NCBI GenBank assembly: GCA_003024785.1
Contig: PUQB01000179.1
Span: 310,001-374,000, forward strand
From: Selaginella tamariscina
Taxonomy: Eukaryota > Streptophyta > Lycopodiopsida > Selaginellales > Selaginellaceae
Direction of reading: 5' to 3'
DNA length: 64,000 nucleotides
Below are positions 2,615 to 63,490 of the stretch, in pieces. How positions within the stretch are numbered: the stretch's first letter is position 1; every line of letters starts with the position of its first letter. Below the pieces are notes generated by a model. The model ran no database searches, was not told the DNA's origin, and saw nothing but the letters and a program-made list of their open reading frames with translations. The translations under genes and the position numbers were made by a program.

Positions 2615-4253
2615 ATGTACGCATACGAGCAGCTGTTGCGTGTGTTAAGGTCGTGCATTCGTGACCGGGACCTCGTCCAAGGCAAGCAGCTGGTGCACCG
2701 CATCCGACAAAGCCCATGGAACCAGGACACCTACCTATTGAATCTCACCGTACAGCTGTATGGCGATGTGGATGTGCTTCGGAAGCCCACAATATGTTTC
2801 ATTTCGATCCCATACAAGAACAGTTTCTCATGGAGCACCATGATAGCTGCATTTGCCGAGAATGGGCACCTCACATCAGCAAAGAACATGTTCGATTCCA
2901 TGGATTCCCGAGGAATAATTCCCTGGACAGCGATGATCACTGCCTACATCAACAACAGACGATACCCGAAGCAGGAGAGACGTCCAGGAGAATGCCCCAG
3001 TCGGACGTTGTTTCAGCGACTGCGATGGTCTCTGCATATGCCCAGTTAGGGGATCTCGACGAAGCGTATAAGGCATTCGTGTCTATGCCCTGCCATAACA
3101 TGTTCACCTGGACTAGCATCACACAGGCGTATGCGCAGTGTGGGAACTTCCAGGAGTCGCTCAGGATGTTCAACAGGATGCCACAATGGGACATGGTTTC
3201 TTGGACAACGCTTATGACTATGAATGCCGAGAACGGGCATCTGCAGGAGGCAAAAATCCACTTCGATATGATACCTTCCCGGAATGCAGTGGCTTGGTCT
3301 GCAATGCTATCCGGATATGCCAAGAACGGGCTTTGGAAGAGGCCAAGCGGGTATTTTCATCTAATGCCAGCTCGAAATCTGCTATCGTGGAACACCATGG
3401 TGTCTACATATGCCCAATTTGGGCACATCAACGATGCCAAACATGTTCTCGCATTTATGCCCGAGGAGAGTGTTTCTGCTGCAAACTCCCTGATCAAAGG
3501 CTATGCGGAGAGGTATGATATTATATATATAAATGTGGATCTTAAACGATGGATATATAGGAAGCAAGTGGAGCAAGCGAAGTTAGTGTTCGATTCACTG
3601 CCGATCGAAACGTTTTACATGGAATGCGATGGTGTTAGCATATGCCAAGAACGGGAACTGCAGCAAGCAGAGAGGCTATTCGAAGAGTGTCCTGAGAAGA
3701 ACATCTTTCCTGGAACAATATGTTAGCAGCCTATGCACAGAACGGGCAAGTAGAGCGTGCGAAGCATATCTTTGACAGAATGCGTGAGCGTGACCCCATA
3801 TCATGGAGTGCAATGCTTTCTGCGTATGCCCAGAACGGGCATCCAGAAGAAACCTGGGAGACGCTCAAGTCTATGCAAAACTCGGGGTTCGACCCGGACC
3901 ACGTCTGTTTCCTAAACACACTCAATGCTTGCAGTCACAAAGGTTGGTCGAAATAAGCCGCCAGCTTTTCCATGAAATGCAGGAGACTACCAGCTTATCC
4001 CTTGGATAGATCATTTCAGTGCCATGGTTGATGTTCTTGGTCGGGCTGGGCACCTCCAGAGAGCCGAGGAGCTGCTCGACGACATGCCTTTCTTACCTGA
4101 TGTTATCTCCTGGAGACAATGTTGTCTGCTTGCCTAGTGTACCGCGACACTGTCCGTGCGAAGAGAGCAGCTAATCAGCTATTGAAGCTTAGCCCTGAAG
4201 AATCTGCTGGCTATGTTGCATCAAACTCTATTGCTGCTGTTGCAGATACTTAA
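2615..4253 (+). pseudogene. PPR-repeat protein pseudogene with several frameshifts
   Basis: Pentatricopeptide proteins bind organellar RNA and direct editing, splicing or stability. The ATG at 2615 begins MYAYEQLLRVLRSC, then GKQLVHRI, typical of the N-terminus of plant PLS-type PPRs. Repeated units follow with signatures such as VVSATAMVSAYAQ, MVSWTTLMTMNAENG, AVAWSAMLSGYAKNG, LLSWNTMVSTYAQFG and PISWSAMLSAYAQNG. The end carries MVDVLGRAGHLQRAEELL (about 4023-4076) and an E-type tail ending at TAA 4251-4253. The units sit in three different frames: frame 2 to about 2950, frame 1 to about 3600, frame 3 from about 3720. Further slips occur near 3640 and 3955. With at least four indels this is a dead copy. 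C-to-U RNA editing could not repair such shifts. Confidence 0.85.
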
Positions 4254-4333: not shown

Positions 4334-6111
4334 TCACTTACAAACCTGCTCTACAAATGCATCTGTTGTAAAACGTGCAACCCATTCTGATCCGTAATCA
4401 GTGCAGCAAAAGTCGTGCATTATGTCTTCCCTTCCTACAAAGGTCCGCAAGCCTGGTACTTCCTTGCATATCTGATATGAAGATATTTAGTTGTGTGTGT
4501 GTGTGTGTGGTGTGTGTGTTACCTGCTTATGCAAACTTAGTGGTCCCCAATGATCGTCAATCCCGAACAAGAGGCAGATTTTCTTTTCATTTTGCCTCAG
4601 AAACTCCCAATCCAGCTCTTCATGCAACTGCCAAAGTGACCAATGAATATTAGTCGCTAAGCAAAATACTGTCTAATGTCATTAACCTTTCCGAACTCCG
4701 TCATGCCCATGTATACAAAGTTGTTCATCATAGAGCCCTGTATACGTTTAGATTTAGAAAACATTAAACTTAATTATTTATTAACTTACTCTGATAAGAT
4801 ATCTCCATGCTGTCTTACAGAAGATGCTCCCCATGCTCCCCAAACAGGGCTTTCATTAAATTCTTGACAACCATTCTGGCCATTTCCCCATAGTGTACGC
4901 TACAGAACCAAGTACAGATCTTATAATAGAGCTCCTGCACGTACTTACATTAATACGCTCTCTCTCTTCTCTATGAAATATTAAGAATCCGAAGTTAATC
5001 TTTTAGAATTACATTTTTAAATATTTATTATTGTGTAGTTATAATGTTTTAAATATACACATGATGTGCTGTGAACTATTAAACACATAACTAAGTATGA
5101 TATCAAAAGTAAGAATATACCCGCAAGCCGTTTTGATGACCTTTTGCTTGAAGGAGTCTGGGTTGGTCTTCAAGAATGGATATAAACCAACAACATAATC
5201 TATCTGTAAAAGAAAGCATAAGCTATACATCTATACAACACACACGCGCGCGCACACACACACCTTGTTGGGATATCTTTTCAAAAGCTCCATGATGATG
5301 TAAGCTCCGATGGAATGACCAACCTGTGGTAGAGTAAACACGCATACATATATACACAAAACATATAGAAGTACATACATGCACATACCAGGACAACTGG
5401 AAGTCATTATTCTGAAATTGTTCTTCAAGAAATGCAGCCTGCATATAAAGCATTGAGAATTGAAAGAAATATTATAAGAAAATACGAAAACCTTATGGTC
5501 TATTTGCTGCTGTAGTGTGAAGAGCTTCCCTTTTTCAAAGTCCTTAAGAAGAACAATAGGCATGTTTATGTTCATGTACGTGTATGTGCACGTTGTGTGT
5601 GTAAATATTGCATACCTGGCAGTATGTGCAATGTGGCTCACAGCTGGAAACGGATCATTAGTCGGATATACACAAACACAGACACATATGCATGCGTATA
5701 TTTCTTTACTCTCTCTCTCACACACACACATCATACAGATATGCGTACATAGTACTTGAAGGTCACCTGTTATAGAAGCGTTGCCACCTGTAAATCTGAA
5801 TAGATGAGCTACATACTCCTTGTAAAATGAGACAATCCCTGTATAATCATGTTCATGTGCCTATATAATACATTGAATGTTTTGATTGATATGTGTGTGT
5901 GTGTGTGTGTGTGTGTCACATACATAATGAATATATTACCTGGATTGCCTGGAACAAAGACAATGCGTAATCGAGGTTGAGCAGAATGTAGCTCCAGCAA
6001 CTCAGTTGTATGCCTGTTGACAAATACATAGAGTGTGTGTTTGTATAAACATATTTAGTTTGTGAAAATTACGCACCCGCCGATTGCCGCTAGACGAAGA
6101 GCGGCAGCCAT
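4334..6111 (-). CDS. LDAH: LDAH-type alpha/beta hydrolase (lipid droplet-associated hydrolase family), about 12 exons
   Basis: The family comprises alpha/beta-hydrolases linked to lipid droplets and sterol ester turnover. Exons read from the minus strand: 6111-6077, 6013-5940, 5838-5767, 5643-5616, 5542-5492, 5438-5389, 5323-5264, 5203-5121, 4899-4819, about 4737-4691, 4627-4523 and 4471-4334. Diagnostic motifs appear in the expected order. IVFVPGNPG is the oxyanion loop, TAVSHIAHT follows, and KLFTLQQQIDHK comes next. VGHSIGAYI is the nucleophile elbow with Ser, then VVGLYPFLKTN, LFGIDDHWGP holds the catalytic Asp, and IMHDFCCTDYGS the catalytic His. Stop is TGA at 4336-4334. Three joins (exons 4/5, exon 6/7 and 9/10) do not keep phase with the donors I chose, so either my splice sites are off there or small indels are present. 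The gene is head to head with TOC75, 184 bp away. Confidence 0.8.
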
Positions 6112-11308: not shown

Positions 11309-13384
11309 GTGAGTATTTCGGGGGCAGCATTGGTTGCGCAGCTGAAACAGATTGCCAAGAGAAGGGACTTGCAAGGGGGTAAACTCTTACATTCTAATGC
11401 GATAGAAACTGGCTGTCAGAAGAACCCATACGTTGCTAGTGCTCTCATTACCATGTATAGTAAGTGCGGCAGCATGCAGGATGCACTGGATGTTTTCAAG
11501 AACATGCTCCAGCGTGATGTTGTTTCCTGGACCGCTTTGATCCTTGGATACGTGGAGAATGGGGAGTGCTTGGTTGCTTGGGAGATGTTCAATACCATGG
11601 ACTGTGCACCAAATAATGTCACATACATGGCTGTACTCAAGGCATGCGCAAGCTTAGCAGCCATTACTAAGTCGGAGAAGAACTCTTGTTTACAGAAGGG
11701 GGTCGCCCTTCATAGACAAGCCAGAGAACGTGGGTTTGACAGAGACGTATTTGTGGCAAACACTTTGGTGGACATGTATAGCAAGTGTGGAGACATGCTA
11801 CAAGCAAAGAATGTTTTCGATGGAATAATGCACCGAAATGCTGTATCGTGGAATGTGTTAATGCTTGGATACGTGGAGAACGGAGAGAGTTCAGTAGCCT
11901 TGGACTTGTTCAGCAGTATGAACTGTCCACCAAACCGCGTCACTTTTGTTGCTGCACTCAAGGCATGTTCAGGGTCGGCAATGAACAACAAACTGGATAA
12001 AAAGTCTTGTCTGGAGAACGGTTTGGCCGTTCATAGGCAAGCTAGAGAGCAGGGATTTGATAGAGAGGATTTTGTAGCAAGCACCTTGGTGGACATGTAT
12101 ATGAAATGCGGGGAGGTGTCCAAGGCCAGAGATGTTTTCGACAGAGTGCTGCGTCGAGACGTTGTATGTTGGACTAGTTTAATCCTTGGATACGTGGAAA
12201 ACGGAGAGAGTTTGATGGCTTTGGACGCGTTCAACAGCATGGAATGTGCACCAGACAGTTTTACATTTGTTGCTGCACTCAAGGCCTGTGTAAGCTTGGC
12301 AACTGACAGTAAGTTGGACAGTCTACAGAAGGGTATGATAATTCATAGGCAGGCCAGAAAGCGTGGCTTTGACAAACACGCATTTGTGTCATGCACGCTC
12401 ATTGACATGTATAGCAAGTGTGGGGACATGCTACAAGCAAGAAATGCTTTGATGGTATGAAGCACCGGGATGTCGTGTCCTGGACTGCTTTAATCCTTGG
12501 ATACGTGGAGAATGGAGAGAGTTTGGTGGCCTTGGACGTGTTCAACAGCATGGACTGTGCACCGAATGGTGTTACATTTTCTGCTGCACTCAAGGCTTGT
12601 GCTAGTCTAGGAGCATTAGAAATTGGCGAGAGAATTCATAATCGATTACGAGAGCTTGGGTTGGAAGAGGATGAAATGGTAGTAAGCTGTTTGGTGGACT
12701 TTTATGGGAAGTGTGGCAACATGGCTGCAGCTCAAGAGGCATTTAACTCTGTGCGTTCTCATGATGTAGTGTCTTGGAACGCTCTGATTGGAAGTTACAG
12801 CTTGCTTGGTGACACACCTCAGGTTTTACTCTGGTGAAAAGGATGCAGGAAGGTGGTGTGAAGATGGACAGCGTCACTATGCTGTTGATACTTACAGCAT
12901 GTAGCCACGCAGGTATGGTGGAAGAAGGGCAGAGCTGTTTCGAGTCCATGTCAAAATTCGGTATTATCCCCACTGTGGAGCATTATATATGCATGGTTGA
13001 CATCCTAGGCAGAGCCAACAGGTTGCAAGAGGCATTGTCACTTGTTAGAAACGTGCCGTTTGAAGCCCAGAGTCCCGTCTGGATGACTTTGTTAGGGGCT
13101 TGTAAGAAATGGAGTAACGTGGAGATCGGCAAAGTTGCATTCAGTGAATTGCTATGTGAGAACAACAAGGAACATGTAGCAGCTGCTTGCGTGTTGATGA
13201 GAAGCATATATGAGAGGCTAGGCATGCGAGAAAGAGGGACCAAATACAAAGTGAAACGAGGGGTCGTAAGAAAGCATGGTGGTGTAATGCAGGGGAAAGG
13301 ATGGTGCAAAGCTTTGTGGCGGGATATAAAATGGAAAGTCAAGTGACAGACAAATTAAAAGCTCTTCTCAGTGCTGATACTTAG
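11309..13384 (+). pseudogene. PLS/E-class PPR protein pseudogene, three frameshifts
   Basis: The open frame begins near 11309 with LVAQLKQIAKRRDLQGGKLL but no in-frame ATG is visible before the first repeats, so the true start may be lost or in an upstream exon. Repeats alternate as P-L-S blocks: VASALITMYSKCG, RDVVSWTALILGYVENGE, NNVTYMAVLKACASLAA, then three more near-identical blocks. The late part (LEIGERIHNRLRELGLEEDE, MVDILGRANRLQEALSL, WMTLLGACKKWSNVEIGK) is the E region. The coding frame shifts near 12450 (2 to 1), near 12830 (1 to 3) and again near 13260. After the last shift an E+-like tail (KKAWWCNAGERMVQSFVAG) runs to TAG at 13382-13384. Compared with the paralogue at 35-37 kb, the first two shifts are single-base deletions. 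Such proteins act in organellar RNA editing. There is no DYW domain. Confidence 0.88.
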
Positions 13385-35155: not shown

Positions 35156-37296
35156 TCAACATCCATTAACAGGCACAAATAAAAATTTAAGTAGTTGTGC
35201 TACTTCCTCTTCTATGTTATCTCCTAGTGTAAAGCTACGTGTGATCCTTCCTTGTGCGTCGTACCACCAGGTTCTCCTCACTTTCCTTCTTTCAGCTTCT
35301 ATCTGCTCTCCCTCCAGTTGCATGCCTAGCTTCTCATACGTGTTCCGCATCAAAACATAGGCAGCCGCTACATGTTCCTTGTTTTTATCGGTTAACAATG
35401 CCATGAATGCAACCTTGCCAATTTCTACATTACTCCATTTCCTACAAGCCGCTAATAAAGTCATCCAGACTAGACCACTGGATTCAAATGGCATGTTTTC
35501 CGCAAGTGATAATGCCTCTTGCAACATATTTGCCCTGCCCAACATGTCAACCATACATCTATAATGCTTGCAAGTGAGACTAACACCATACTTTGCCGTA
35601 GACTCAAAATACATCTGACCCTCTTCTACCAGCCCGGTGGCTACATGCTGTTAGTATTAACAACATTGTAACGCCATCTATTTGCAGTCCGGATTCCTGC
35701 ACTCTCTCCACCAATCTAAACACTTGAGACGTATCACCAAGCAAGCTGTAACCTCCAATCAACGCATTCCAAGACACAACGTTACGAGAACGCATCCGCT
35801 TAAACACCTCTTCAGCTGCGGGCATGTTGCCACACTTGCCATAAAAGTCCACCAAGCAGCTTGCTACCATTTCATCCTTTTCTAATTCAAGCTCGTGTAA
35901 TCGTTCATGAATTCTCTCACCAATTTCTAATGCTCCTATACTAGAACAAGCCTTGAGTGCAGCCACAAATGTAACAGCGTTTGGTGCACAGTCCATGGTG
36001 CTGAAAGCTTCCAAAGCTGCCGAGCCCTCTCTGTTTTCCACGTATCCATGGATCAATGCATTCCATGATATAACATCCCGATGCATCATTCCATCGAAAA
36101 CTCCTCTTGCCTGTATCATATCCCCACATTTACTATACATGTCTACCAAGGTGTTTTCTACAAAACTGTCCTTGTCACATCCATGTTCTCTTGCTTGTCC
36201 GTGAATAGCAACTCCCTTCTGCAAGCAACTCCACTTATCCATCTTATAGCCGGCTGCCAAGCCTGCACAAGCCTTTAGTACAGCAGCAAAACTAAGTTGG
36301 TTTGCTGCACAGTCCATATTATTAAATACTTCCAGAGCTAGCAAATGATCTTCATTTTCCACGTATCCAAGCATTAAGGCGTTCCAGGATACAACACTCC
36401 GGTGCGTCATTCCATCAAAAACATGTCTTGCTTGTAACACGTCTCCACATTTGCTATACATGTCTATCAAGGTGCTTGCCACAAAGACATCCCTGTCAAA
36501 GCCACGCTCTCTAGCCTGTTTGTGAATGTCCAAACCCTTCCGAAGACAAGCCTCTTTCTCCAGTTCGCTGCCACCTGCCAAGCCTGCACACGCTTTGAGT
36601 GCAGCAACGAATGTAAGGCGGTTTCGTGCACATTCAATGGCGTTAAACACATCCAAGGCTATAGAACACTCCCCAATCCCCACATATCCAAGGGTTAACA
36701 CAGTCCACGATACTACGTCTCGCTGCGTCATTCGGTTGAAAACAGCTCTTGCTCTTAACATGTCGCCACATTTGCTATACATATCCACCAAGGTGTTTGC
36801 CACAAGTATGTCTCTGTCAAAGCCCTGCTCCGTGGCTTGCCTGTGAATGCTGACCCCCTTCCGTACGCAAGTCTTCTTGTCCAAGTTGGTCGCCAAAGAT
36901 GCACATGCCTTGAGGGCAGCAACAAACGTGACACGATTTGGAGCGCAGTCCATGCTGTTGAAGACGTCCAAGGCCACTGAGCTCTCTCCATTCTCCACGT
37001 ATCCAAGGATCAAAAACGTTCCAAGATACCACACTTCGATGTCTCATTCCATCGAAAACATTTCTTGCCCGTAGTATGTCACCGCACTTGCTATACATGT
37101 CCACCAAGGTGCTCGCCACATATAGGTCTCTGTCAAACCCATGCTCTCTGGCTTGCATGTGAATGCTCACGCCCTTCCGTAGGCAACTCTTCTTGTCCAA
37201 TTTCTTGCCTATTGCCAGAGCTGCACATTCTTTGAGCGCACAAACAAATGTAGCACTGTTCGGTGTGTGAAACACGTCCAGGCTCACCGAACTCAT
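35156..37296 (-). pseudogene. PLS/E-class PPR protein pseudogene, paralogue of the 11.3-13.4 kb copy
   Basis: Read leftward, four or more long P-L-S blocks repeat: VASTLVDMYSKCG, VVSWTVLTLGYVGIGE, NRLTFVAALKACAGLAGG, LRKGLDIHKQARERGFDRD. The E region follows (LEIGERIHERLHELELEKDE, RCMVDMLGRANMLQEALSL, WMTLLAACRKWSNVEIGKVA) with an E+-like tail KVRRTWWYDAQGRITRSFTL before the stop at 35156. There is no DYW domain. The frame is broken twice. Near 37020 one extra T lies in a T run (GAACGTTTTTGATCC). Near 35625 about two bases are missing, after LTACSH. The N-terminus is truncated: the frame begins at about 37296 inside a repeat, and a gypsy element lies 250 bp upstream. Such proteins act in organellar RNA editing. 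Confidence 0.88.
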
Positions 37297-37845: not shown

Positions 37846-38780
37846 ATGAATCCACAACAGACAAATCCCTTGTCTGTGGAGCAGTTACTCATGCAGTTGT
37901 TGGATGCCATGCGTGTGCAATTGAACAATCATTCTCAGTTGATGGCAGCATTCACAGCCAGGGTACTCCTCCTACGCATGTTGCAAACCCCCGTGTCCGA
38001 CCGGATTTCTTTCGCGGAAATCCTGGAGATGATGTGTACCATTGGTTTGACCACTTCACTGTGGTTGCCACATATCATTCGTGGGACGGTGCTCAGTGTT
38101 TGCGCGAGTTTCCTACTTGTCTTCAAGGGACGGCGTTGCAGTGGTACAATGGTCTGGACGTTGCAACTCGTGGCGATTGGAATATTCTTCCAGAGATCTT
38201 CAAACGTGCATTTGGGCATGCGGACGACTGTGATGATGCTTTTCAGCAGTTGCATCGTATTCGTCAGGAGCCGTCTGAGTCGGTGATGCAGTTTGGTGTT
38301 CGCTTTCGAAGCCTTTTGCTGCGTGCAGAACCTAACATGTCGGAACGCATCAAGTTAGGTATGTTGTGGCCAGCACTTCGTCAAGACCTTGTGGGGCTTG
38401 TGCATGCACTAGCTCCAGTGACTCTTGACGATGCTTTGAGGCTGGCACAACGATATGAGTCGTCACCTCTCCCACTTGTGCCTTCACGTGCTCTTGTTCC
38501 ACTCCATGTTGGGGATGGACCTGCTCCGATGGAGGTTGAGGCTGTTGCCGCTCGTGTACCAGCACAAGGTGGGGCCCGTGGACGAGGACGTGGACGTGCA
38601 GTTCGTTGTTGGGCATGTGATGAGGTTGGACACACGTATCGGCGCTGTCAACGGTTTCCCGATTGGCGTCCCCCATTTCCAGGATGGAGGCCATGGCGGC
38701 AACAACGTCCGGTTGGTGCTGCTGCAGTGGAAGGTTGTGATGCGGTGGATCTTCCGGGAAACGACGAATCGCACGAGTAG
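37846..38780 (+). pseudogene. Gypsy gag with zinc knuckle
   Basis: Starts MNPQQTNPLSVEQLLMQLLD at 37846 and shifts frame near 38025. The capsid part reads VYHWFDHFTVVATYHSWDGA, LQGTALQWYNGLDVATRGDW and RIRQEPSESVMQFGVRFRSL. An Arg-Gly tract and one CCHC knuckle CWACDEVGHTYRRC (about 38609-38650) follow. The protein ends at 38780. Confidence 0.9.
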
Positions 38781-38806
38781 AGGAGGGTCCTCGTGCGAAT
38801 AAATTA

Positions 38807-40670
38807 GTGACCCCTCCATCTTTCTTTCGGGAGTATCATCAAGGGGTTCACTCGGCACCAAATCATCCGGTTTTCACTTTTCAAGCTCGTTTCAATCGCA
38901 CACCTCATCCTGTTTTCCTTTCAGTGTTGGTGGATACAGGTTCAAGTTTGTCCTCTGTTTCTCAATCTGTTGCTACACGTTGCAGCCTTCATTTGCGTCG
39001 TGCGGTAGAACCAGTCTTCATTCTGTACGGCAACGGACATACTCATGCTTGTTCGCGGGATGAAGTGGACATTGTTGTTCGTGTGGATGATTGTGAGCTC
39101 GAGCTTCAATCTTTGCGGGTGGTGCCGAGTCAAGCTTTTCACCTTATTCTTGGTATGGATTGGTTAACTCGCAATCATGCCAAGTGTGACTTTGAAAAGT
39201 CTCCCCCTTGTTTGACTCTCCCTCGTCTTTCTTCCATTCCTCTTACTTCTATTCCACTTCGTCCATCTGCTTCCACCTCTGCTTCCATCACTTTTGTCTC
39301 ACCCTTATTTCCAACCATTTTCCCTTCATGCTCTTCCTTTTCTTCTTTGGATCCATCAGATGATCGTCGTGCTGTAGTTGTTGATCAACTCAAGAAGGAG
39401 TATGCTGATCTTTTCAACTTCGACTTGTCATCTGGGGCCAAGATTGCGACACGCCACCCTATTCCAACTGGAGAAGCTAGGCCAATCAAGGTACCTGTTC
39501 GGCGTCGATCACCAAAGGAGCTCAAGATCTTACGAGCGAATGTCAAAGAGATGTTGGAGAAGGGTGTTATCCGGAAGTCTCGAAGTCCTTGGGCGTGCGA
39601 ACCTCACCTTGTGACGAAGCCTGATGGGAGCGTTCGATTCTGCATTGATTATCGCCCGTTAAATGAGGTAACCGTCTCAGATGTGTACCCACTTCCTCAT
39701 ACTGCAGACCTTTTGGATCGACTGGGGCGGAGCCGTTGGTTCACCAAGTTAGATCTCGCATCTGGATATTGGCAAGTTCCGATGGCTGACATGGACATTC
39801 CCAAGACTGCTTTTCGAACACCATTTGGCCTGTACGAGTTCCTGGTGATGCCTTTCGGTTTGAGCAATGCTCCAGCAACTTTCCAGCGTATGATGGATGA
39901 GGTTCTTTGCGACATGCCGGAGGTGACTGCGATTTCATCGATGATGTTTTGATCCATTCGGATGGAACGTGGGAGGAGCATGTCGGTGATGTACGTAAGG
40001 TTTTGGATCGACTGCGGGAAGTTGGTTTGAAGTTGAAGCCATCTAAGTGTGTATTTGGATCAAAGGACACCACTTATCTGGGTTATCGCATTTCACGTGA
40101 AGGTTTGCAAGTCGATCCTGACAAACTAGTTGCAGTTTTGAAGTTCCCTACGCCAAAGTGTGTGAATGATGTGCAACGCTTTCTTGGCAAGGTACAATAT
40201 CTGGGTCGTTTTCTGGATCATCTTTCAGATCGTACTGCACCGTTGCGCGCGTTGTTGAAATCGTCAATGACTTCTTTTGTTTGGTCTAAGGATTGCAAGC
40301 AGGCATTTGCAGATCTCAAAGAGTTGTTGACGACTCCTCCAGTTTTGGCGTACCCGGATTACACTCGTCCTTTCATCTTGCGTGTAGATGCTTCTGACAT
40401 CGGCCTCGGGGGTGTATTGATGCAGGAGAGTACAAGTGTTCCTGGCCAACGACATCCCATTGCATACATCAGCCGTACATTGCAGCCAGCAGAGGTGAAT
40501 TACTCCACAACTGAAAAGGAGTGTCTAGCAGCAGTTTGGGGTTTTGAGAAGCTCCATGCCTACTTGCATGGTTCGCGGACGTTGTTGGAAGGTGATCATG
40601 CAGCAGTCACTTCGTTGTTGAGCGAAAGAATTTGATTGGGCGTACTGCTCGGTGGGCCTTGAAACTTCAA
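38807..40670 (+). pseudogene. Gypsy protease, reverse transcriptase and RNase H
   Basis: Protease: FLSVLVDTGSSLSSVSQSVA with an intact DTGS, then LILGMDWLTRNHAKCDF. Reverse transcriptase: VIRKSRSPWACEPHLVTKPD, RFCIDYRPLNEVTVSDVYPL, WFTKLDLASGYWQVPM and FLVMPFGLSNAPATFQRMMD. The frame breaks directly before the catalytic FIDDVLIHSDG (about 39937-39963). RNase H: FILRVDASDIGLGGVLMQES, SRTLQPAEVNYSTTEKECLA and, after one more shift at about 40633, the end VVHRPGSSMADADALSRAPL. The shifts leave this copy unable to make an intact polyprotein. Confidence 0.92.
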
Positions 40671-42240
40671 ATTTACGACTTTGAAGTTGTTCATCGTCCA
40701 GGGAGTTCCATGGCTGATGCTGATGCTCTTTCTCGGGCTCCTCTTCCACCTTCTCTCTCTTCTGTTGCCCCAGAGGAACCAGTTGTTCCAGCTTCAGTGG
40801 ACTTTTTGGATGAAGATTCCGTACCATCAGCAGTTGCTGTGCTTGACGTTCAGTGTCCGCAGAATGCAGAGTTAGATTTGCCGTCTTTGGATGAGGTTCG
40901 GGAAGCTCAAAAGGTTGAGCCGTGGATTCGAAGGCTTCGTGATGGGTTTGAGAATCCTGCATCACTTGCTGATGACTTGCCTTTCAGGCATTTACATTCA
41001 CAGTATCGCCTTCAGGATGACCTTCTTTATTTTGTGGGGACTGATCCAGATGATCCTTTGCGGTTGGTGGTACCTTCAATCTTCATTCCACGCTTCCTCC
41101 ATGCTTACCATGACTCTCCTATTCTTGGCGGGGCACATGGGACATCGTCGGGTGATGGAGAAGCTGCGCAGATCTTTCTATTGGCCGGAGTTGCGAGGAG
41201 ATGTGATTCGGTATGTGCGTAGTTGTGTGTGGTGCCAAGCTCGCAATACTCCCCCATGTGCTTCGGAAGGACGGTTGGAGTCAATTGCAGTTTCTCGTCC
41301 GTTTGAATTGGTGGCATTTGATTTGATGGGACCTTTTCCGCGGTCAACTGCTGGTAACGAGTACGTTATTATTGCTTGATTAATTACCTAACTCGTTGGG
41401 TAGAAGTTGGTGCTCTTGCTAGTGCGACTGCTTCTGCTGTTGGTCAGTTTCTCCTGAATCGGTCGTGTTTCAGCATTCTTGTCCGGAGCGAATTCTCTCG
41501 GATAAGGTCCGCATGGCATGATTTTGGCTGAGGCATTTCATGTTTTGACATCTCGATTAGGGATACGCCACACTTTCACAAAGTGCTTATCATCCTCAGA
41601 CAGATGGTTTAGTGGAACGGCTTGTTAGAACCTTCAAGGGGATGATCGCAAAGTATGTGAACTTTCAACATTCAGATTGGGATGGTTATCTGCCGTCTCT
41701 CCGATATGCTTATGTCACTGGAGTTCAAAGTTCCATTGGTACTTCTCCATATAAGCTTTTGTATGGTCATGACCCGGTGTTGCCAACGGAGTTGGGTTTG
41801 CCGTCTCGGTTACCGCGAGCTGCTGATGCTAGGTCATGGGATCGGTATCTGACAAGCATCTTCCATTGGTTCGTGCGGAGTCAGCAGAACACTTGGGCCG
41901 CGTACAAGTAGGACAACAACAACGGTACAACTCGCATCATCGTCCTCCTGCGGAGTACAAGGTTGATGAACTGGTGTTGGTTCGTTTTCCCAAGCTTACG
42001 GTACGTGGTTTAGCTAAGAGTCTCCTTCCTCAATGGAAAGGACCGTATCGAGTGTTACGGCAAGTAGGACCACAGGTTTATGAGGTTCGGCACGACATTC
42101 AACCCGATCCTCCGGAGATTGTACATGTACAACGGTTGAAGCATTTTGTGCAACGGGAACAAGTTGTGCCGCCTATAGATCCACCAGTGCCTCCTCCTGA
42201 TGTTCCTCCAGATCCGGGCCCGTCTACAAGAGAACCCTAA
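40670..42240 (+). pseudogene. Gypsy integrase
   Basis: The zinc-binding part is seen as LAGHMGHRRVMEKLRRSFYW and RSCVWCQARNTPPC. The core begins LVAFDLMGPFPRSTAGNEYV, holding the first catalytic Asp, and ends in a stop at 41380. Pieces continue in other frames to MERLVRTFKGMIAKYVNFQH (with the last catalytic Glu), then LRYAYVTGVQSSIGTSPYKL and LYGHDPVLP. The C-terminus has QWKGPYRVLRQVGPQVYEVR, the GPY/F module, and a proline-rich tail to TAA at 42238-42240. Confidence 0.9.
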
Positions 42241-50690: not shown

Positions 50691-50699
50691 AGGAATGAG
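50691..50699. repeat. Left 9-bp target site duplication AGGAATGAG
   Basis: Identical to 58422-58430. Nine bases is the usual duplication size of MULE transposons. The inverted ends start directly inside both copies. Confidence 0.8.
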
Positions 50700-50812
50700 A
50701 AGGATTAGCAAAAACTGGGCTTCGTACAATGGGCTTTTCGCATATTCCCGAATATCCAGGAATATTCTATCAAATAAATGGGAATATTCTAGAATATTCT
50801 ACCAAGTAGATT
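50700..50812. repeat. Left terminal inverted region of the MULE-type element
   Basis: Pairs, complemented, with 58316-58421. The outermost 24 bp match best. Further in, both hold clusters of GGAATATTCTA, itself a near-palindrome and a plausible transposase binding unit. Confidence 0.65.
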
Positions 50813-50929
50813 ATCTTTAACTTTCAATAAAATGCCGACCAACAAGTGAAAAACGCTAATTTTTGCCGACTAGACTTTACTATACCGATTGGACTTAAAA
50901 GGTCGTAGGTTCGACATTGCGCTTGCAAT

Positions 50930-53900
50930 CAACCAATAACCGATGCACTTCTGCTGGAGTAAGGGTCCGCCTCTGTAAGATAAGTAATCGTTGGGTCCAA
51001 TCCAAGAACATGAGTGTACACAAAATACATGTGTTGGCAGGGGCTCCAGTTCTTGGCTTTCTGAAAAGTTGCACAAGTGCATGACAGAACAGTAGAAATT
51101 GTTACCTTAGCAGATTGCATGCCTGCAGAGACAATGAAGGCCTCAGTCTTCCCTCTTTGAACCACCTCCACGTTGTTGATCCGACCTTGAAGAATCTTTG
51201 CCTGGTTGTAATGTTTCTCATGTTCCTTGGACATTCTTGTTGGTGTTCGCACACTCCGTCCATGGTATGTTGGTACTCTATGTGCTCCTCTCCTCTTGGT
51301 GGTGATGGTGTTCGATCCATTTGGCTACTACTGCCGTCTACCATTTCTTCAAATCCCTCCAACTTGAATCCTGCTTTCAGAAGAGCTTCAACCTCATTTG
51401 CATTCAAGTTTGTTCCTTTTTGAACTGGCCAAACCTCTGGAACTTCTGGAATACTCTCAGGAGGAATCCCTGCATATGGTCGTTTGAAGCAACAAGAATC
51501 GCGTGGGCAGACCATAACATCTGATGAGTGAACTCAATGTTCCCAAATGCATTTGTATTTGCCGTCTACCGTGAAATCCTGGTGCCGGTACACAATGTGG
51601 ATATCCTATGGGTCTGCCACACTTGCTGTTACCGTCCTGAGTAGACCTAGACATTTCACTTGACTTGCCTCCCCATGCGTCTAATGGCCCACTGAGTCAT
51701 CAACGTCTCTCTTTCAGTGAACATTGACATCTTGAAACTTGAGTTTTTTCCTACGTGCATTTGGGATGACTTGTTCTACATATTGTGTGTCATGTCTATG
51801 TGTACGAAGCGCATCAATCCCATGGTCCCCAGTTGACGGTTGATGAACGGTTCGAACACGAACATTTGTTGTAGAGGCAAACTTTGGACTTGCAAGATGC
51901 TCTTCATCACTAACAAGATTTGCAAAAGTTGTTGGAGACACTGATTTTCCCGCTGAAAGTTTCTGCTGTGCACGTTTCAGAAGAGTTTCCATGGAAGGAC
52001 CTGTGCCTGAATATCTCCTTCAAATGATGCCTTGACCTTTGCACTTTGGAAAACAGCATCTGTTAAATCTACATTGTTGCCTCCAACAAAGGAACACGCT
52101 TCATCAGCCTTGCTCTTCGTGCTCTTGCATGAACAATTCGGAGTTGTTTGGTAGCACATTCGCAACACCATCTTCTGTCAAGTCAATTATCTCTGTCATG
52201 GGAAATATTGATCTTCATGTCTTGCCCACCATGACAGCCATGTTTGCAAAGCGCTAACGTTACTGGACCTGCCTTCCCAAAATGACTCCAACATTACTCG
52301 TCGTTCCAACTTATCTTGGTTGGTTAGTGCTGCAGGCCATGAGCGTGCAAGGTTCATGTGCTCCTCCCTGTGTTCCTCAAGTATCACTTCTTTGTAACTT
52401 GACGCACTGACTGCATGTAATGGAACAAACAACTCCTTTCTCTTCCTCTCATCTTTGACCCATTGTTGAAAACTTAACGCAATGCTAACCAAATTGCACC
52501 TGACTCATCTGACATGAACCCCGCAAAGTTCACATTATGAAGTCCTTGCTTGCTGCACACTTGAAGCATAGTGTTCAAAAATTTGATCACCGCCACACTA
52601 TCCTCCCTGATCATGTCACCATAAGCAAGTGTCACCATCGACCTTAAACTACACAAACATAAGTGCATTATATTAGTAAGTATTTTAAAACATAGATATA
52701 TTAATACTTACAATGGATCATAGAGATGTATTCCCAGTGTACACCAATCATCAATACGATATGTGTGGTCTAGCACCACCCACTGCTGTTCGAGATCACC
52801 TCCAGATTGACACCTTCTAATGTAGTCTATTCCGGATCCTGGGCCGGCAATCGTCATTTTGAAGATTAAAGGCTGCTCTTCAGCTCCGTTGAGGTCCATT
52901 CCGGGTATGTGGATAAATGTATGAATGGGATTGATAGCTTCTTCTTTAACTGCAGAAGTCCTTCGTAACCTTCTTTGAAACGAGTGTCTCTTGTTCTAGC
53001 CTGAGATATCCATTCTCTTGTTCTACAGTGGAAAGTTAAGCATCTCCAAAAGGAAATAATAATTTTTTTGCTTACCGGCGGTGATTTGTGAGTGGTAATA
53101 ATCTGATAGAACCTTGTCGTATGATACATCTCCAGAATCTGTTACCAGTTTTTCCAAAATTATATTGCGTGCTGCTTGAAACTCTATGACACGTTGATTA
53201 GTTCTTGGGGTTGTAGCGATGCTTTGTTAATTGTCTCCTTAGCTCTGTCTTTAGAGACCATGGATTCGGGTGGTCTACGTGGATGTTGATGTTCTCCAAG
53301 ATGGATGAAAAGCCTCGTGCATGTGATATCATCTGGAATTATGTAATATGCAACAACGGAGCATGTCTGCACTAGAAGGGGCTCATTGTTGCAATGCACA
53401 CACTTCATTCCAAGCACTCTACCATCTGAAGATAACTGGACTTTATCAATGGTGCCCTTAAATTGGCAGTCATTTGCTTTCTTACTGAAGCTGATGAACG
53501 GACATGTTTCCTTTACGCATTTCATGTGGCCAATACATGAACTGCGACTAACACGAGCTGGAACATTCCAATGTGTTGTGCAGCGTTGAGTCCAGTAATC
53601 ACACCCATCCTTCCTATTCATCCCTTTGTACTTGTCCTTCATTGTTTCGTGTGCTGGCAACTCGTAAATCACATTTCCGTTGCAATCTTCTGGGACCTCA
53701 GCAACTTGCTGAATCGATGACGAGACCACCAGTTGCTTCCCAATCCTACATCTCTGACTATTGCGAAGTATTGTTACCATAGAATTGTCCCGATCTGTTG
53801 TCTCCAACCGGAATAGTGGTCCTTTGGAAGGAAGAAGTGTGTAATACACAAAACTGCTAGCTCTTGCCCCTTCTGGTTCTACCTCAACATTCGCAGCATC

Positions 53901-54053
53901 TCCACCAACAACAGACATCAAATGCAGCACTTTAAAAGATTGCTAAGGTGGAATGTCAAATGCAGACCTGAGATCTGTTTCAAAGACAAATGCAATACCA
54001 TCTTCATCTGCAGGGAAGTCCTTGTCAACACCATTGTAGCTGATTCTTGCCAT
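50930..54053 (-). pseudogene. MULE transposase with GCM/WRKY-like zinc finger and SWIM finger, decayed
   Basis: ATG at 54053 starts MARISYNGVDKDFPADEDGI. An in-frame TAG (53945-53943) sits in DLRSAFDIPP-stop-QSFKVL, consistent with a CAG to TAG change. The next 240 residues carry a Cys/His module, with RKDGCDYWTQRCTTHW, CIGHMKCVKETCPFISF, MKCVHCNNEPLLVQTC and FIHLGEHQHPRRPP. This fits the GCM1/WRKY/FLYWCH-type fingers at the front of MULE transposases. After a shift near 53195 and an intron (donor at about 53076), the DDE core appears: WVVLDHTYRIDDWCTLGIHL (first Asp), then FAGFMSDESGAIWLALR (second Asp, about 52500). The third acidic residue is not certain. A basic linker follows, and a SWIM zinc finger (CTCATFQKAKNWSPCQH, about 51100-51045). 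Several other shifts exist. No function remains in this copy. Confidence 0.82.
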
Positions 54054-54889
54054 GTAGCAAAAATGGAACAAACAAAAGTTAAAATTCAAAGACAATGAAC
54101 ATATTACACACGATGGTTAATGTGTTTGTTAGTCGTGAGGCAATCATTTCATTGACAAATATTAAAAATAATATTAGTGAATTAATTTACTGCGTCTGGG
54201 TAGGTTTTTTGTAAATTAAAAAGTTTTACTATGTACAAGTGGCGATCATGCATGCAATATGTTTACAGAAATTAGGTTGGTTTTTAATTGATTTAGGGCG
54301 GCTAGGGTTTTGCAATTAGGGCGGCTAGGGCAGCTAGGGCGGCTAGGTTTTCGTGGAGCAGGGGCTCATTTGGGGCATAGCGTGGAGCAAGTGTGGCTCA
54401 GGGATTAATCACAATAGGCTTCCATTGAGGGGTGAGTATTTTCTGATTTCTTCATGATCTGCTCATGATCTGTTCATCTTTTTACATCTCTTCACAGTTG
54501 CAAGAAATCCGAGTCGGCCTGCCGACTCGGACTGACTTCGTTGTCCGTCCCAGTCGGCAGGCCGACTGGGTGGACTGTTCCAGATCCAGTCAACATTTTG
54601 ACCGGGGTTGACTGTTCCAGCCCCAGTCAGCATTTTGACTAGGGTTGACTATTTAGTCCCACCTAGCATTTTGACTAGGCCTCCCTTTGTTGCCAGTCCC
54701 AGTCGGCATGCCGACTGGGCCTCCCTTTGTTGCCAGTCCCAATCGACATGCCGATGGGACTTACAGCAACTGCTCTCTCAGTCGGCACGCCGACTGTGAG
54801 GGCTAGTATGTTTTTTTAATTTTTATTAAACATCTTTGAACATTTATTACAAAACCTTATTGCTTTTGTAGTGCTCTTCACAACGTTTA
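54054..54889. promoter_or_regulatory. Divergent promoter region between transposase and ParB-methyltransferase genes
   Basis: It separates two genes transcribed away from each other. The left part is AT-rich. A block of GGCGGCTAGGG repeats occurs at 54295-54345. The right half holds the palindrome cluster described separately. A 5' UTR intron for the plus-strand gene probably ends at the acceptor TTGCTTTTGTAG near 54873. Confidence 0.5.
54509..54796. repeat. Cluster of dyad repeats with core AGTCGGC-NN-GCCGACT
   Basis: Four strong copies: 54509-54530 (10-base arms CCGAGTCGGC and complement, centre CT), 54549-54570 (arms CCCAGTCGGC, centre AG), 54698-54719 (same arms, centre AT, a perfect 22-bp palindrome) and about 54779-54796 (arms CAGTCGGC, centre AC). 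One weaker copy lies at about 54738-54759. Three diverged units of the form GTCA-n6-TGAC lie between 54590 and 54680. They look like binding sites for a dimeric protein. Confidence 0.88.
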
Positions 54890-57800
54890 CAAGAAAAGAA
54901 GACGAAGGAGCCTACTGAGAGAGAAGTAGAAGCTAAAGCTGCAATTCAGAGAGGGCGTCGAGGTCGTGGGAGAGGAAGTAGGAAGCTGGCTGTGGTTCAG
55001 GAACAAGGACCTTCAAGTGATGCTCTAGTTGAACAGGCAAGCCAACAGGACTGGTCAGGAGAGCAAGAGGATGTAGTTCAACCCCAACAAGAAACAATCA
55101 GACTTTGTTGAAGAAGTTGAGGATGATGTCTTACTACAGGAGACACAGGAGCAGACAGAAGGCACACAAGCCTCATGCGCAGTGACTTTGTTGAGTGACG
55201 AAGAGGATGAACCCAAGAACAAGAAGAGACGACGCAAAGCTGCTGGAGATTCAGAGGCTGCTAAGAAGAAGAAGGGTAAAGCAGAAGTGCCAGATAATGA
55301 GGAAGTTTACAACATTGCAGCCAGCATGCATTTGGAGAGTGCAGTGCATCTTCTCGCGAAGATCACAATCCGAGAATATGGAGAGGCACCGAATGTCCCT
55401 ATTTGCTGAATTCTGGGAAATGAACAGGTGCGGAGAGTCAATCCAGCGGATCTGGAATCTTTGACTAGGAGTTTCAAGAAGGCAGTTGGTTATTTGCGCA
55501 ACACCACTCAGTTCATCCTTCAAGTTGGGGACCCCATGACAGATGCAGATCTGGCAGCATGAGAAGCGATGAAGCGATGAAGCGATGAAGCGATGTATGC
55601 TCAGCATTTGGCTTTTGAGGAGGAGCTTCAGTCTGACATGTTCCGGCAATGGGCACCAATGCTTTCGATGAAGAAGTTCATCTATTGGGATGGTAATCAC
55701 AGGCTAAAGGTGCTTCAGAAGCTGTACATAGAAGACACGGAAGATAAGAATCAGTGGGCAGTGAGAGTGCGTTCAGGCTTCATCCGTGCTGGGGTCATGG
55801 ATAATCTTCAGCTTGTGACAATGTTTCAGCAAATTAATAGGTAAACATAGTGACCTCTAGATCATAGGATTAATTAACTTCGAGATTTTCAAATATGCAG
55901 TTCCTCCGCAATGGCAGTGCAAATCACATTGCCACATCTTTGCTATCTGTGAAGACATGTTGCACCAGTGAGGAGGGCACAGCGAAGATCTTGGCCATGC
56001 TCAGTGACAAGGAACGAGATGACATAAGAAAGTGGAAGGAAAGCGCAACTGGACAACAAGCTTGGCATCCACTTCCGAATTTGATCTGTGCAAAGATTTT
56101 TTTTGAGGTACCACGTCTCACACTTATATTACTTAGTTGATTACGTCTGTGAATTACAGAGTGAGATTGAGGATGATCTTGAGAAGGCTGCAAGGGCATC
56201 CAAAGGCAACAAATACCAGGAGCAACAACAGGTCTACATTAAACATGACAAGCGCATGATGAAGATCTTAGCCATCATCGATCCTGCATTGGGTGAAGAG
56301 TGGTTCGACAAGGTGACCCAAATCACATGGAAACAATGCAGATGGATGGGGTTGGAAAAGCTGTACGCGCTTTCAAGGGCGAGAATTCCAAACGAGACGA
56401 GAATCATGTACTTCAATAAACTGGTACGTCTCGATCTGAAGAGAGAGCAAGAGACACTTGGATTGCCGGGTGTTCAGGATAAGGAGTGGATCAGGTGGTT
56501 TATTATCGATTTGTATTGGCGAGCAATCAGAGAGGAGGCAGTCCAGATTCTCACGGGACTCATCGAGGATGGCGAGTGGACCAGGCCAGTTACAGATTTC
56601 ACGACTTGGTACGATGAAGTGCGGGTAAAATGCAAGAACGTGATGTTCCAGCCATTCCATGAGTGTGTGAAGTTCACTTACTCCATAGAGCTGAAAGAGT
56701 TCCTCGAACACGAAGAGACAGCAAGAAGGATGATTTGGAGGTAAGGATGATCTTCTTGACATTGTTACATTCTGACACTACTGTATGTTCATTACATGTA
56801 TGTCACAGCGAGAAAGGTGCCTCACACACAGACTATGGTATTCTGGTCAGATTACATGGAAGCACCACACATGTGGTCGAAGACAAGATCTGGCCTGACA
56901 GAGTTTGAACGTGTAAACGTACCGTTCTGGCTTGATTATCCACCTGGGCAACCACCAACATGGGAGAAGGATCTCTACAATGAACACTCAAAAGATCTCC
57001 CATGCATCTCATGGGATCCGGCAGAGGTCGACTTCATTAAGAAGACAAAGGCCAAGGCAAAGCGGTGTCAGCCTGTGCAGCAGTCAAAGAAGACCTCAGA
57101 TACAGTAGCTAGCACCTCCACTACTCGCGATCCAGCTGCCTTATTTCAATTTATCTGAAGTGCTACCATCGCAGGGAACCATGAACATCAAGGATGACTT
57201 GGTCACATTCGTCCCTTCACTTGTACAACTCGAGGTGATAATTTCTTGGCGATTGATGACATCGAGGAGATGCAACAGGCTGTGCTCACGGATGAGAAGG
57301 AAGAGGAGGTTCCTGCGCTAGACTAGTTCCTTATAGAAAAGTTCAGACACAGGTGGCCAGGTACCATACAGTTGACAGCCAGACTCGCTACCAGCATATT
57401 GCGGGAGAATATGGTTTCAACTTGGTGATCTTCGACCTTCCAAATGGGACCTTGCCAGGAAATACAACGAGTGATACGCCATACCTCTACCTTGATCCAG
57501 TGAAGTTCGATGAAGCACTCCAATTTGCAGGTATGCATATGGCTGCAAATGGTTGGTTGGTTGTGTTTGCTTCAGCAAACACCTGGGATCAAGTTGTCCG
57601 AGCTGCAAGTGTGGTGGACCTTCAACTTGCTGCAACGTACTACATCTACAGAGGGCGTGGTTGGGGCTACCGCAACAAGATGAAGGTACTTTTTTTTATT
57701 CATGAAGTTCATTAATGATTTTTGATGTTTTAACAGGAGAGCATCCTGCTCCTTCTTGTCTTCCAAGATGCATCTAGAGGATTGCGCGATAATCCGCTGC

Positions 57801-58197
57801 GTTTGTCATCAACAATTCTTGTTGATAATCCTGAGCGGTTCCAAGAACCATGGTAGGCATTTCATTTCAACAATTTAAGTATTTACCATTATCTTCACAT
57901 GAAGGATGGACTACCAACCGAAGAGCACTCGATTGATGCAGCTCGTGATAGAAGACTCACCCGGCCAGGTGATCTTATCTGGGATATAGGCAGTGGTACG
58001 GGTCCTCAATGCTTGTAGCTATCGAGCTGGGGAGAAACATTGTTGGGACTGAGAAGAACCCTGAGCTCGAGAGAATTGCTATGAACATGATTAAAGAGAA
58101 CATCCAGCCAGAGGAAATCCCAACCCAACCAATAGCGACGTCAAGTAGGACTGGTGGTTCACGAATTGCAGCATTGCTCAATCGTAAGAAGAAGTGA
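54884..58197 (+). pseudogene. ParB/sulfiredoxin-like domain fused to a beta-class-type DNA amino-methyltransferase, decayed
   Basis: The first part is Gln/Glu/Lys-rich with a GRRGRGRGSRK tract and a basic stretch KNKKRRRKAAGDSEAAKKKK (nuclear localisation likely). A ParB/Srx-type domain follows: ILGNEQVRRVNPADLESLTR and later FIYWDGNHRLKVLQKLY (about 55680-55730), where DGNHR matches the family's conserved G-x-[HR]-R box. A TGA at about 55408 lies in PIC-stop-ILGNEQ (Arg CGA expected). Exons of about 55596-55841, 55896-56106, 56159-56742 and 56813-57158 form a helical middle region. The C-terminal third is a methyltransferase: NLVIFDLPNGTLPGN (motif IV position, DPPY-like), WLVVFASANTW, a target region, then KSTRLMQLVIED and DLIWDIGSGTG (motif I) with VAIELGRNIVGTEKNPELER. 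Motif IV before motif I is the beta-class order. Two shifts split the last part. Confidence 0.75.
55563..55595. repeat. Four tandem copies of GAAGCGAT
   Basis: An 8-bp unit repeated four times inside the ParB-like coding region, between the ILGNEQ and DGNHR parts. It introduces stops (GATGA) and shifts the frame, so it is probably an expansion within this copy. Confidence 0.85.
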
Positions 58198-58315
58198 CAA
58201 GTGTTGAATTGTACTCTTTGGTGTTGAAATAAAACTTTAATAATATAGTATAAACATGGCTATGATTTAAATATTTTTGTTGTTAATTGTCGACTAAGCC
58301 AAAATCCTAAATTCT

Positions 58316-58421
58316 AAGAATATTTAGGAATATTCTAAGAATATTCTGGTAGATTTTTAGAATATTCCGGGTCCAAGCCCGGAAGCCCAGAAGCCCAGAA
58401 GCCCTCTTTTTGTCGGGACTC
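58316..58421. repeat. Right terminal inverted region of the MULE-type element
   Basis: Contains three GAATATTC units and a run of AGCCCAGAAGCCC repeats, mirrored at the left end by GGGCTTCG and GGGCTTTT. Confidence 0.65.
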
Positions 58422-58430
58422 AGGAATGAG
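58422..58430. repeat. Right 9-bp target site duplication AGGAATGAG
   Basis: Identical to 50691-50699. Confidence 0.8.
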
Positions 58431-62944: not shown

Positions 62945-63490
62945 TTAGCTAAACTCACTGACCGTCCTTGTTAATGCATTACATAAGTGTGTTTGGAATT
63001 CTCCCACTATTGTGGCTCTCCTAACGCGTGACAAAGCATCTGCCACCACGTTTAGTCTTCCTGCGCGATGCTCAATAGGAAATTCGCCAAACTCCATGAG
63101 CTTAACCATCCAGCGAGCTTGCCGAGAGTTTAACTCTTTCTGTGTGAACAGATACACCAAAGGCTTGTGATCTGTAAACACCTTGAAACTTGCACCATAA
63201 AGATAGTGCCTCCAAACTCGTAATGCATTAACAATAGCCAGTAGTTCTTGCTCATACGTTGAGTACCGTTGCTCTGCAGGATTCAAAGTACGACTCTCAT
63301 AAGCAATAGGCCTTCCCTCTTGCATAAGTACAGCTCCAATGGCCACTCCACTTGCATCACACGATACCTCATAAGGCTTAGAGGGATCTGCAATACATAA
63401 AACTGGTGCACGTACCAAAGCTTGTTTCAAAGCTTGGAAACTGCTCTCCTCTGAAGCACTCCATGCAAAGGGAACGTCCTTCCTTAGCAA
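62945..63490 (-). CDS. Gypsy RNase H domain
   Basis: FAWSASEESSFQALKQALVR, YEVSCDASGVAIGAVLMQEG (first catalytic Asp), ESRTLNPAEQRYSTYEQELL (Glu) and FKVFTDHKPLVYLFTQKELN (Asp), then IEHRAGRLNVVADALSRV. All expected catalytic residues are present. The frame runs to 62945. Confidence 0.92.
   Translation of the reverse strand: MLRKDVPFAWSASEESSFQALKQALVRAPVLCIADPSKPYEVSCDASGVAIGAVLMQEGRPIAYESRTLNPAEQRYSTYEQELLAIVNALRVWRHYLYGASFKVFTDHKPLVYLFTQKELNSRQARWMVKLMEFGEFPIEHRAGRLNVVADALSRVRRATIVGEFQTHLCNALTRTVSEFS

Follow-up and report, generated by a model that had tools for sequence, protein, structure and literature searches.

How a plant DNA transposon could come to carry a gene resembling a phage or bacterial DNA methyltransferase, and whether that gene does anything for the element, are the questions raised by a locus in Selaginella tamariscina. 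The locus lies in a 64,000-nucleotide stretch of contig PUQB01000179.1 (positions 310,001 to 374,000, forward strand; hereafter the window, with positions counted from its first base), in which a reading of the sequence alone had described a Mutator-like element (MULE) encoding a transposase and, divergently, a protein joining a ParB/Srx-like domain to a DNA amino-methyltransferase (MTase). The observation as a whole is confirmed, the composite element being a recently active family, and the interpretation offered with it, a MULE carrying an acquired prokaryote-style module, is partly supported. We regard it as moderately probable that this is a MULE-like cut-and-paste family whose second, accessory gene comes from a phage or bacterial amino-methyltransferase and acts on the element's own DNA against silencing.

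A transposon family with two divergent genes

The genome (300.7 Mb in 1391 contigs) was searched with a 1-kb probe from the transposase region, and 40 places were scored out of 756 first-look candidates. These 40, the window included, match the probe at 98-100% identity, the 100% row being the window itself. Twenty of the 39 non-window places were fetched with ~1 kb of flank each; having been chosen by a transposase probe, these copies represent the transposase-bearing elements, and the sampling favours error-free transposase sequence. The perfect 9-bp direct repeat noticed around 7722 bp of the window has counterparts elsewhere, as exact 9-bp duplications at the element ends were found in 11 of the 20 fetched copies, every one, the window's included, different in sequence, which rules out a chance repeat in the window. 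Flanking repeats of 7-9 bp are present in L015, L023, L026, and L027 if a displacement of 1-3 bases at the ends is tolerated, and L028 has an 8-bp flanking repeat with one mismatch; comparison of the end flanks found no target-site duplication in L012, L013, L016, or L017. Further copies with the same gene pair and 9-bp duplications of their own, the search that the sequence-only reading had proposed, are thus present in the genome.

The copies share their ends (GAGGATTAGCAAAAACCGGGCTTCG...GAAGCCCTCTTTTTGTCGGGACTC), apart from L016 (left end disrupted) and L017 (right end disrupted). The degenerate inverted repeats that had been seen at these ends are also real: in L010, the copy tested, the terminal inverted repeat reaches a local score of 24, whereas the best of 500 mononucleotide shuffles scored 14. 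Triplets of GAATATTC palindromes occur in mirror image at the two ends in all four copies checked (window, L010, L023, and L026). The 9-bp duplications fall within the 8-11 bp given as the rule for MULEs in a survey of these elements (PMC6446971), and the terminal inverted repeats expected of MULEs are present in degenerate form, non-TIR (terminal inverted repeat) MULEs being without them. As a separate observation, L013 and L024 agree in the bases that lead up to the left end (14 given here, CAGCTTTCGAAGTG) and have different right flanks, with L013 lacking a duplication; this is possibly the result of recombination between copies or of an assembly join.

Both genes were matched at least partly in 20/20 fetched copies. 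The transposase aligned over >90% of its length in 19 of them (exception, L016), and >90% of the MTase coding length aligned in 18 (exceptions, L015 with 721 of 3099 and L017 with 2179). A genome profile search with PF01555, in which 150 of 739 first-look candidates were scored and all 150 exceeded the cut-off, placed an amino-MTase match at a distance of 5.5-6.2 kb from at least 27 of the 40 transposase places, on the side and strand that the element predicts, with 0 on the mirror side. One of the 13 unlinked transposase places is the window copy, and the scoring of 150 of 739 candidates may account for others. The divergent pairing of a transposase with a methyltransferase-like gene, first described from the window, is therefore borne out as a property of the element. 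Element ends without the MTase gene, which had been named as a finding that would speak against this reading, occur in one of the 20 copies; this copy (L015) is an internal-deletion derivative with 5.2 kb between its ends. It has lost most of its MTase gene, has a flanking repeat of 8 bp once its ends are shifted, and is a candidate non-autonomous member. Separately, some PF01555 places (C1293:521691, C885:163325, C516:760708, C1016:101040, C531:72094, C586:478833, C50:53506, and places on C14, C111, and C113) differ from most rows in aligned stretch or open-frame length, and may belong to sister or more ancient transposon families, or be host genes. C565:331665 is a further divergent PF01555 place.

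The age of the family was judged from an alignment of 18 sequences (the window and 17 copies; L015, L016, and L017 were excluded for large rearrangements). The 17 copies differ from their own majority by 6-53 substitutions each over ~7.9 kb, and the window copy differs from that majority by 117. Short indels of 1-2 bases (236, versus 365 substitutions, summed over the 17 copies) exceed the expectation from age alone, so that part of them may be assembly error; one-base deletions in these copies are ~3 times rarer per column in coding (68 in 6155) than in non-coding sequence (58 in 1767). The window copy itself is dead. Its transposase gene contains 2 stops and 18 frameshifting indels and shows no constraint (26 non-synonymous and 11 synonymous changes, near the neutral expectation), its accessory gene contains 1 stop and 8 frameshifting indels, and the start anchor found elsewhere in the family is missing from it. 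Eighty of the window's substitutions are C-to-T or G-to-A, at 25/484 CG, 34/729 CHG, and 21/2390 CHH sites, the spectrum to be expected if a plant host had methylated this copy at CG and CHG positions and deamination had followed. Because of this CG/CHG bias the host is, on the evidence of the element itself, most likely a plant, a conclusion that spliced genes and by-eye pentatricopeptide-repeat-like open reading frames (ORFs) in the window also fit.

The encoded proteins

The transposase frame is open throughout (1018 aa) in L010 and L026. A GCM-like finger, a DDE core, and a SWIM finger had been described in this protein, and in profile searches the last of these is borderline. The C-terminus contains a SWIM-like CxC..CxH arrangement, of which the CxC and CxH parts are read in 16/20 copies, and the SWIM model PF04434, whose cut-off is 19.6 bits, scores 19.2 bits for the C-terminal piece and 14.5 bits for the whole protein. 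SWIM zinc fingers are common, but not universal, in MULE transposases. The N-terminus is rich in Cys and His and GCM-like by eye; among the Pfam models, GCM, WRKY, and FLYWCH gave no match to this piece, the only rows being weak and unrelated. A DDE-like block is likewise discernible by eye, and LDHTY and SDESG, taken by eye as the two Asp sites, are present in 20/20 copies; this piece matched no Pfam model, those of MULEs included, at E<=10.

The frame of the accessory gene (1032 aa) was read from native exons taken from three copies, L022, L020, and L023. The exon lengths met with most often (959+840+889+116+295 = 3099) sum to a multiple of three and are frame-consistent, and the introns are of the GT-AG type. 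An extra intron within exon 2 was considered and ruled out, as it gave stops and as exon 2 reads through in L020. The predicted protein consists of an acidic/basic N-terminus, a ParB/Srx-like motif, a long middle without assignment, and a C-terminal N6_N4 methyltransferase-like domain.

Hidden Markov model searches support the amino-methyltransferase domain that had been proposed. The Pfam model PF01555 (N6_N4_Mtase) scores 36.3 bits against a cut-off of 26.7, covering profile positions 165-220 of 221 only, and the phage DNA-methyltransferase family phrog_67 of PHROG matches the motif I half (E=2.9e-11). Weaker matches were obtained from NCBIfam (corrinoid-associated methyltransferase, 4.8e-6; CcrM, 1.3e-5), all far under the family cut-offs, and from the Protein Data Bank (PDB), where DpnA, MboIIA, and CcrM reach E values of 0.003-0.009 and ribosomal L11 methyltransferase lies in the same range. 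A PDB profile search from an alignment of the accessory protein with five phage MTases was dominated by the phage sequences and is uninformative for the accessory protein. The profile matches span the half that binds S-adenosylmethionine (SAM), and near this half lie the matches of 17 phage records found with tblastn, each covering 5-10% of the query. A search of genome_contigs gave a single 32-residue match in Patulibacter, and a search of viral_contigs gave no match. Protein searches found no homologue at E<=1e-3 (in one search, at E<=0.01), which is weak evidence of absence, given that these searches reach exact-word relatives only and that one of them scored only the 8000 candidates with most shared words. 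The closest detectable MTase relatives are from phages and bacteria, in collections that are mostly non-eukaryotic.

Within the C-terminal region, FDLPNG aligns with the D(P/L/I)PY of the five phage MTases and precedes motif I. Motif IV before motif I is the order of beta-type amino-methyltransferases. Methyltransferase ancestry of the accessory C-terminus is supported, and a phage or bacterial amino-methyltransferase with this beta-like order is the probable source of the gene. The ParB/Srx-like domain fared less well: the motif WDGNHRLK, recognized by eye, is read in 18/20 copies, and none of the ParB models in Pfam matched the intact domain, with ddrB-ParB, the nearest, reaching 12.4 bits (cut-off 27.6) when a piece with one stretch removed was used. 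A single-sequence structure model of the ParB-like piece was unusable (pLDDT, the model's confidence score, 37.8).

The palindrome array and a possible role of the accessory protein

Between the two genes lies a variable array of 18-bp palindromes, a new feature beyond those described in the sequence-only reading. Each copy contains 2-9 palindromes of the CAGTCGGCATGCCGACTG type (<=3 mismatches allowed), mostly ~40 bp apart, and their number differs among copies (e.g., the array of L023 occupies positions 5009-5427 of that copy). In the VANDAL MULEs of Arabidopsis, VANC, the product of the second gene, is described as binding fast-changing non-coding tandem repeats with short motifs and removing silencing (PMC10398659). 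Because of this parallel, the palindromes suggest themselves as a candidate binding site of the accessory protein.

Under the reading that we favour, the accessory protein would enter the nucleus by means of its basic stretches and would be recruited to the element by the part outside the methyltransferase domain; the variable palindrome array that separates the two promoters is the most plausible landing site. There it could methylate the element's DNA as N6-methyladenine (6mA) or N4-methylcytosine (4mC); alternatively, if DLPN has lost catalysis, it might serve as a factor that binds DNA and SAM. In both cases the promoter region would stay open despite CG/CHG silencing by the host, an effect that VANC proteins have on VANDAL elements. 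A more specific form of this proposal, in which a phage-type ParB-methyltransferase acts as a self-recognition device that reads the palindrome array in the element's own promoter region and evades CG/CHG silencing by writing a base mark foreign to plants (6mA or 4mC) at that site, is offered tentatively and is, as a whole, rather unlikely to be correct.

Selection, decay, and alternative explanations

The transposase is under purifying selection. Its 19 usable copies (without L016) show 13 non-synonymous and 22 synonymous changes (omega 0.27, p=1e-4), and the changes unique to single copies, 8 non-synonymous and 10 synonymous, give p=0.02. The signal in the MTase gene is weaker, with 62 non-synonymous and 43 synonymous changes in 18 copies (without L015 and L017; omega 0.57, p=0.003), or 40 and 30 after removal of the decayed copy L025 (p=0.004). 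Several observations weigh against the favoured reading. Kinship among the copies means that p-values on totals overstate the evidence, and the unique changes in the MTase gene (38 non-synonymous and 21 synonymous, 21/59) do not depart significantly from neutrality (p=0.14). A fully open MTase frame matching the gene model was found in 0/20 fetched copies, and frameshifting indels number 101 in the MTase gene (18 copies) versus 39 in the transposase (19 copies), in a sample picked by transposase probe. The catalytic motif of amino-methyltransferases follows the rule (D/N/S)PP(Y/F/W). The accessory protein fails this rule, motif IV being DLPN and not DPPY in 18/20 copies (the other two are without the region), so that methylation activity, judged from the motif, is possible but doubtful.

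These same observations are what would be expected if the MTase gene were a passenger, captured by an active transposon and hitch-hiking on it while decaying, without a role of its own. The altered catalytic motif, the missing open frames, the surplus of frameshifts, and the non-significant test of unique changes all point in that direction, but a pure passenger would not readily account for the overall omega of the gene, the consistency of its exon lengths and GT-AG introns, or the retention of nearly its whole length in most copies, and the excess of frameshifts is counted in a sample biased towards error-free transposase sequence. We consider a passenger gene an improbable explanation, if one to be taken seriously. 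It is distinctly unlikely, in our judgement, that the MTase-derived protein instead assists transposition (through strand choice, post-replicative marking, or target choice) and has no part in anti-silencing, in the manner of MURB in maize MuDR. Such a helper would suit the two-gene layout, which recurs in other two-ORF MULEs (PMC6446971), and nicking of DNA has been reported for a Bacillus cereus protein that fuses ParB and methyltransferase (PMC5512222); the palindrome array, however, is internal, away from the ends where a transposase would have to bind.

An artefact, either contamination or a bacterial gene lying by chance beside a plant repeat, has to be considered, since domains of bacterial type often give warning of such problems in plant assemblies. 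Contamination is rejected on the introns of the accessory gene and the repeated linkage of the gene pair, which recurs at many places with differing left flanks (except in L013 and L024) and, as noted above, on the predicted side and not on its mirror, and an artefactual origin of either kind is barely credible.

Relation to known elements

The extra gene as such has precedents. MULEs often carry second ORFs, with a SET domain listed in those of Phytophthora, and two-ORF MULEs such as MuDR of maize (mudrA/mudrB) resemble the present family in having a transposase plus a second ORF, but differ in that no DNA methyltransferase is among their products, the 2019 survey having 0 occurrences of the word "methyltransferase" in its main text (PMC6446971). 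The VANDAL elements are similar in being MULE-type, with 9-bp duplications, a second gene, and fast-changing non-coding tandem repeats (PMC10398659, PMC6446971), whereas the description of VANC does not speak of a methyltransferase (PMC10398659), and the present likeness is one of layout and repeats. Transposable elements that encode DNA methyltransferases are also known, as DIRS1 and the retrotransposons of dinoflagellates and charophytes that carry a DNA methyltransferase (DNMT), but these are retrotransposons, with an adenine MTase in DIRS elements or a C5 DNMT (PMC3266345, PMC5890265), and DIRS1-like elements are reported absent from green plants (PMC3266345).

Fusions of a ParB-CTPase fold with N6_N4_Mtase offer a similar domain pairing, if the ParB-like part of the accessory protein is real, but are described from phages and prophages (PMC12704722); the ParB part of the present element was assigned by eye. 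N4CMT of bdelloid rotifers is likewise a bacterial amino-methyltransferase taken up by a eukaryote, but it is described as a silencer of transposons and not as cargo of one (PMC8885841). DNA transposons with an epigenetic enzyme include TET/JBP-carrying elements of fungi and SET-carrying MuDR elements of oomycetes; their enzymes differ in being a dioxygenase or a histone methyltransferase, and their hosts in being fungi and oomycetes (PMC12730594). In the open literature, with subscription papers and Repbase outside the scope, no report was found of an amino-methyltransferase gene carried by a MULE or by any other DNA transposon of plants.

What is already known, therefore, is that MULEs carry extra genes and that retrotransposons carry DNA methyltransferases. 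If the accessory enzyme works, the family would allow two questions to be tested directly and genome-wide: whether a transposon in a plant can write a DNA mark of its own, and whether plants can have methylation of adenine or of cytosine at N4; if the enzyme is dead, a methyltransferase fold would have been reused for element recognition. Were self-marking true, this DNA transposon would label itself and introduce a foreign DNA mark into the genome of a plant.

Features of the window

Table 1. Coordinates of the transposon copy and its parts in the window.
Feature	Position	Strand	Basis
Whole transposon copy, decayed, 7722 bp	50700..58421	.	ends common to other copies
Left target-site duplication, AGGAATGAG	50691..50699	.	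sequence; exact repeat at right end
Right target-site duplication, AGGAATGAG	58422..58430	.	sequence; exact repeat at left end
Left terminal region, degenerate terminal inverted repeat and three GAATATTC palindromes at 50760, 50782, 50792	50700..50800	.	
Right terminal region, GAATATTC palindromes at 58328, 58339, 58360	58320..58421	.	spacing is mirror image of left
Transposase gene, 3 exons/1018 aa in intact copies; broken in window copy	50898..54053	-	tblastn of L026 protein; gene model
Intergenic tandem array, 18-bp palindromes of CAGTCGGCATGCCGACTG type at 54551, 54700, 54779	54509..54798	.	
Accessory gene, 5 exons, 1032 aa in model from other copies; broken in window copy	54870..58197	+	tblastn; native-exon model
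Methyltransferase-like region across exons 3-5, motif IV FDLPNG, then motif I DIGSGTG	57420..58150	+	PF01555, PHROG, phage alignment

Elsewhere in the window, long ORFs at 2716-3726, 11309-12460, and 35604-37034 (-) appear by eye to encode pentatricopeptide-repeat proteins, consistent with a plant genome. The ORFs at 38034-41222 and 62945-63490 (-) resemble, again by eye, Ty3/Gypsy gag, protease, reverse transcriptase, and RNase H.

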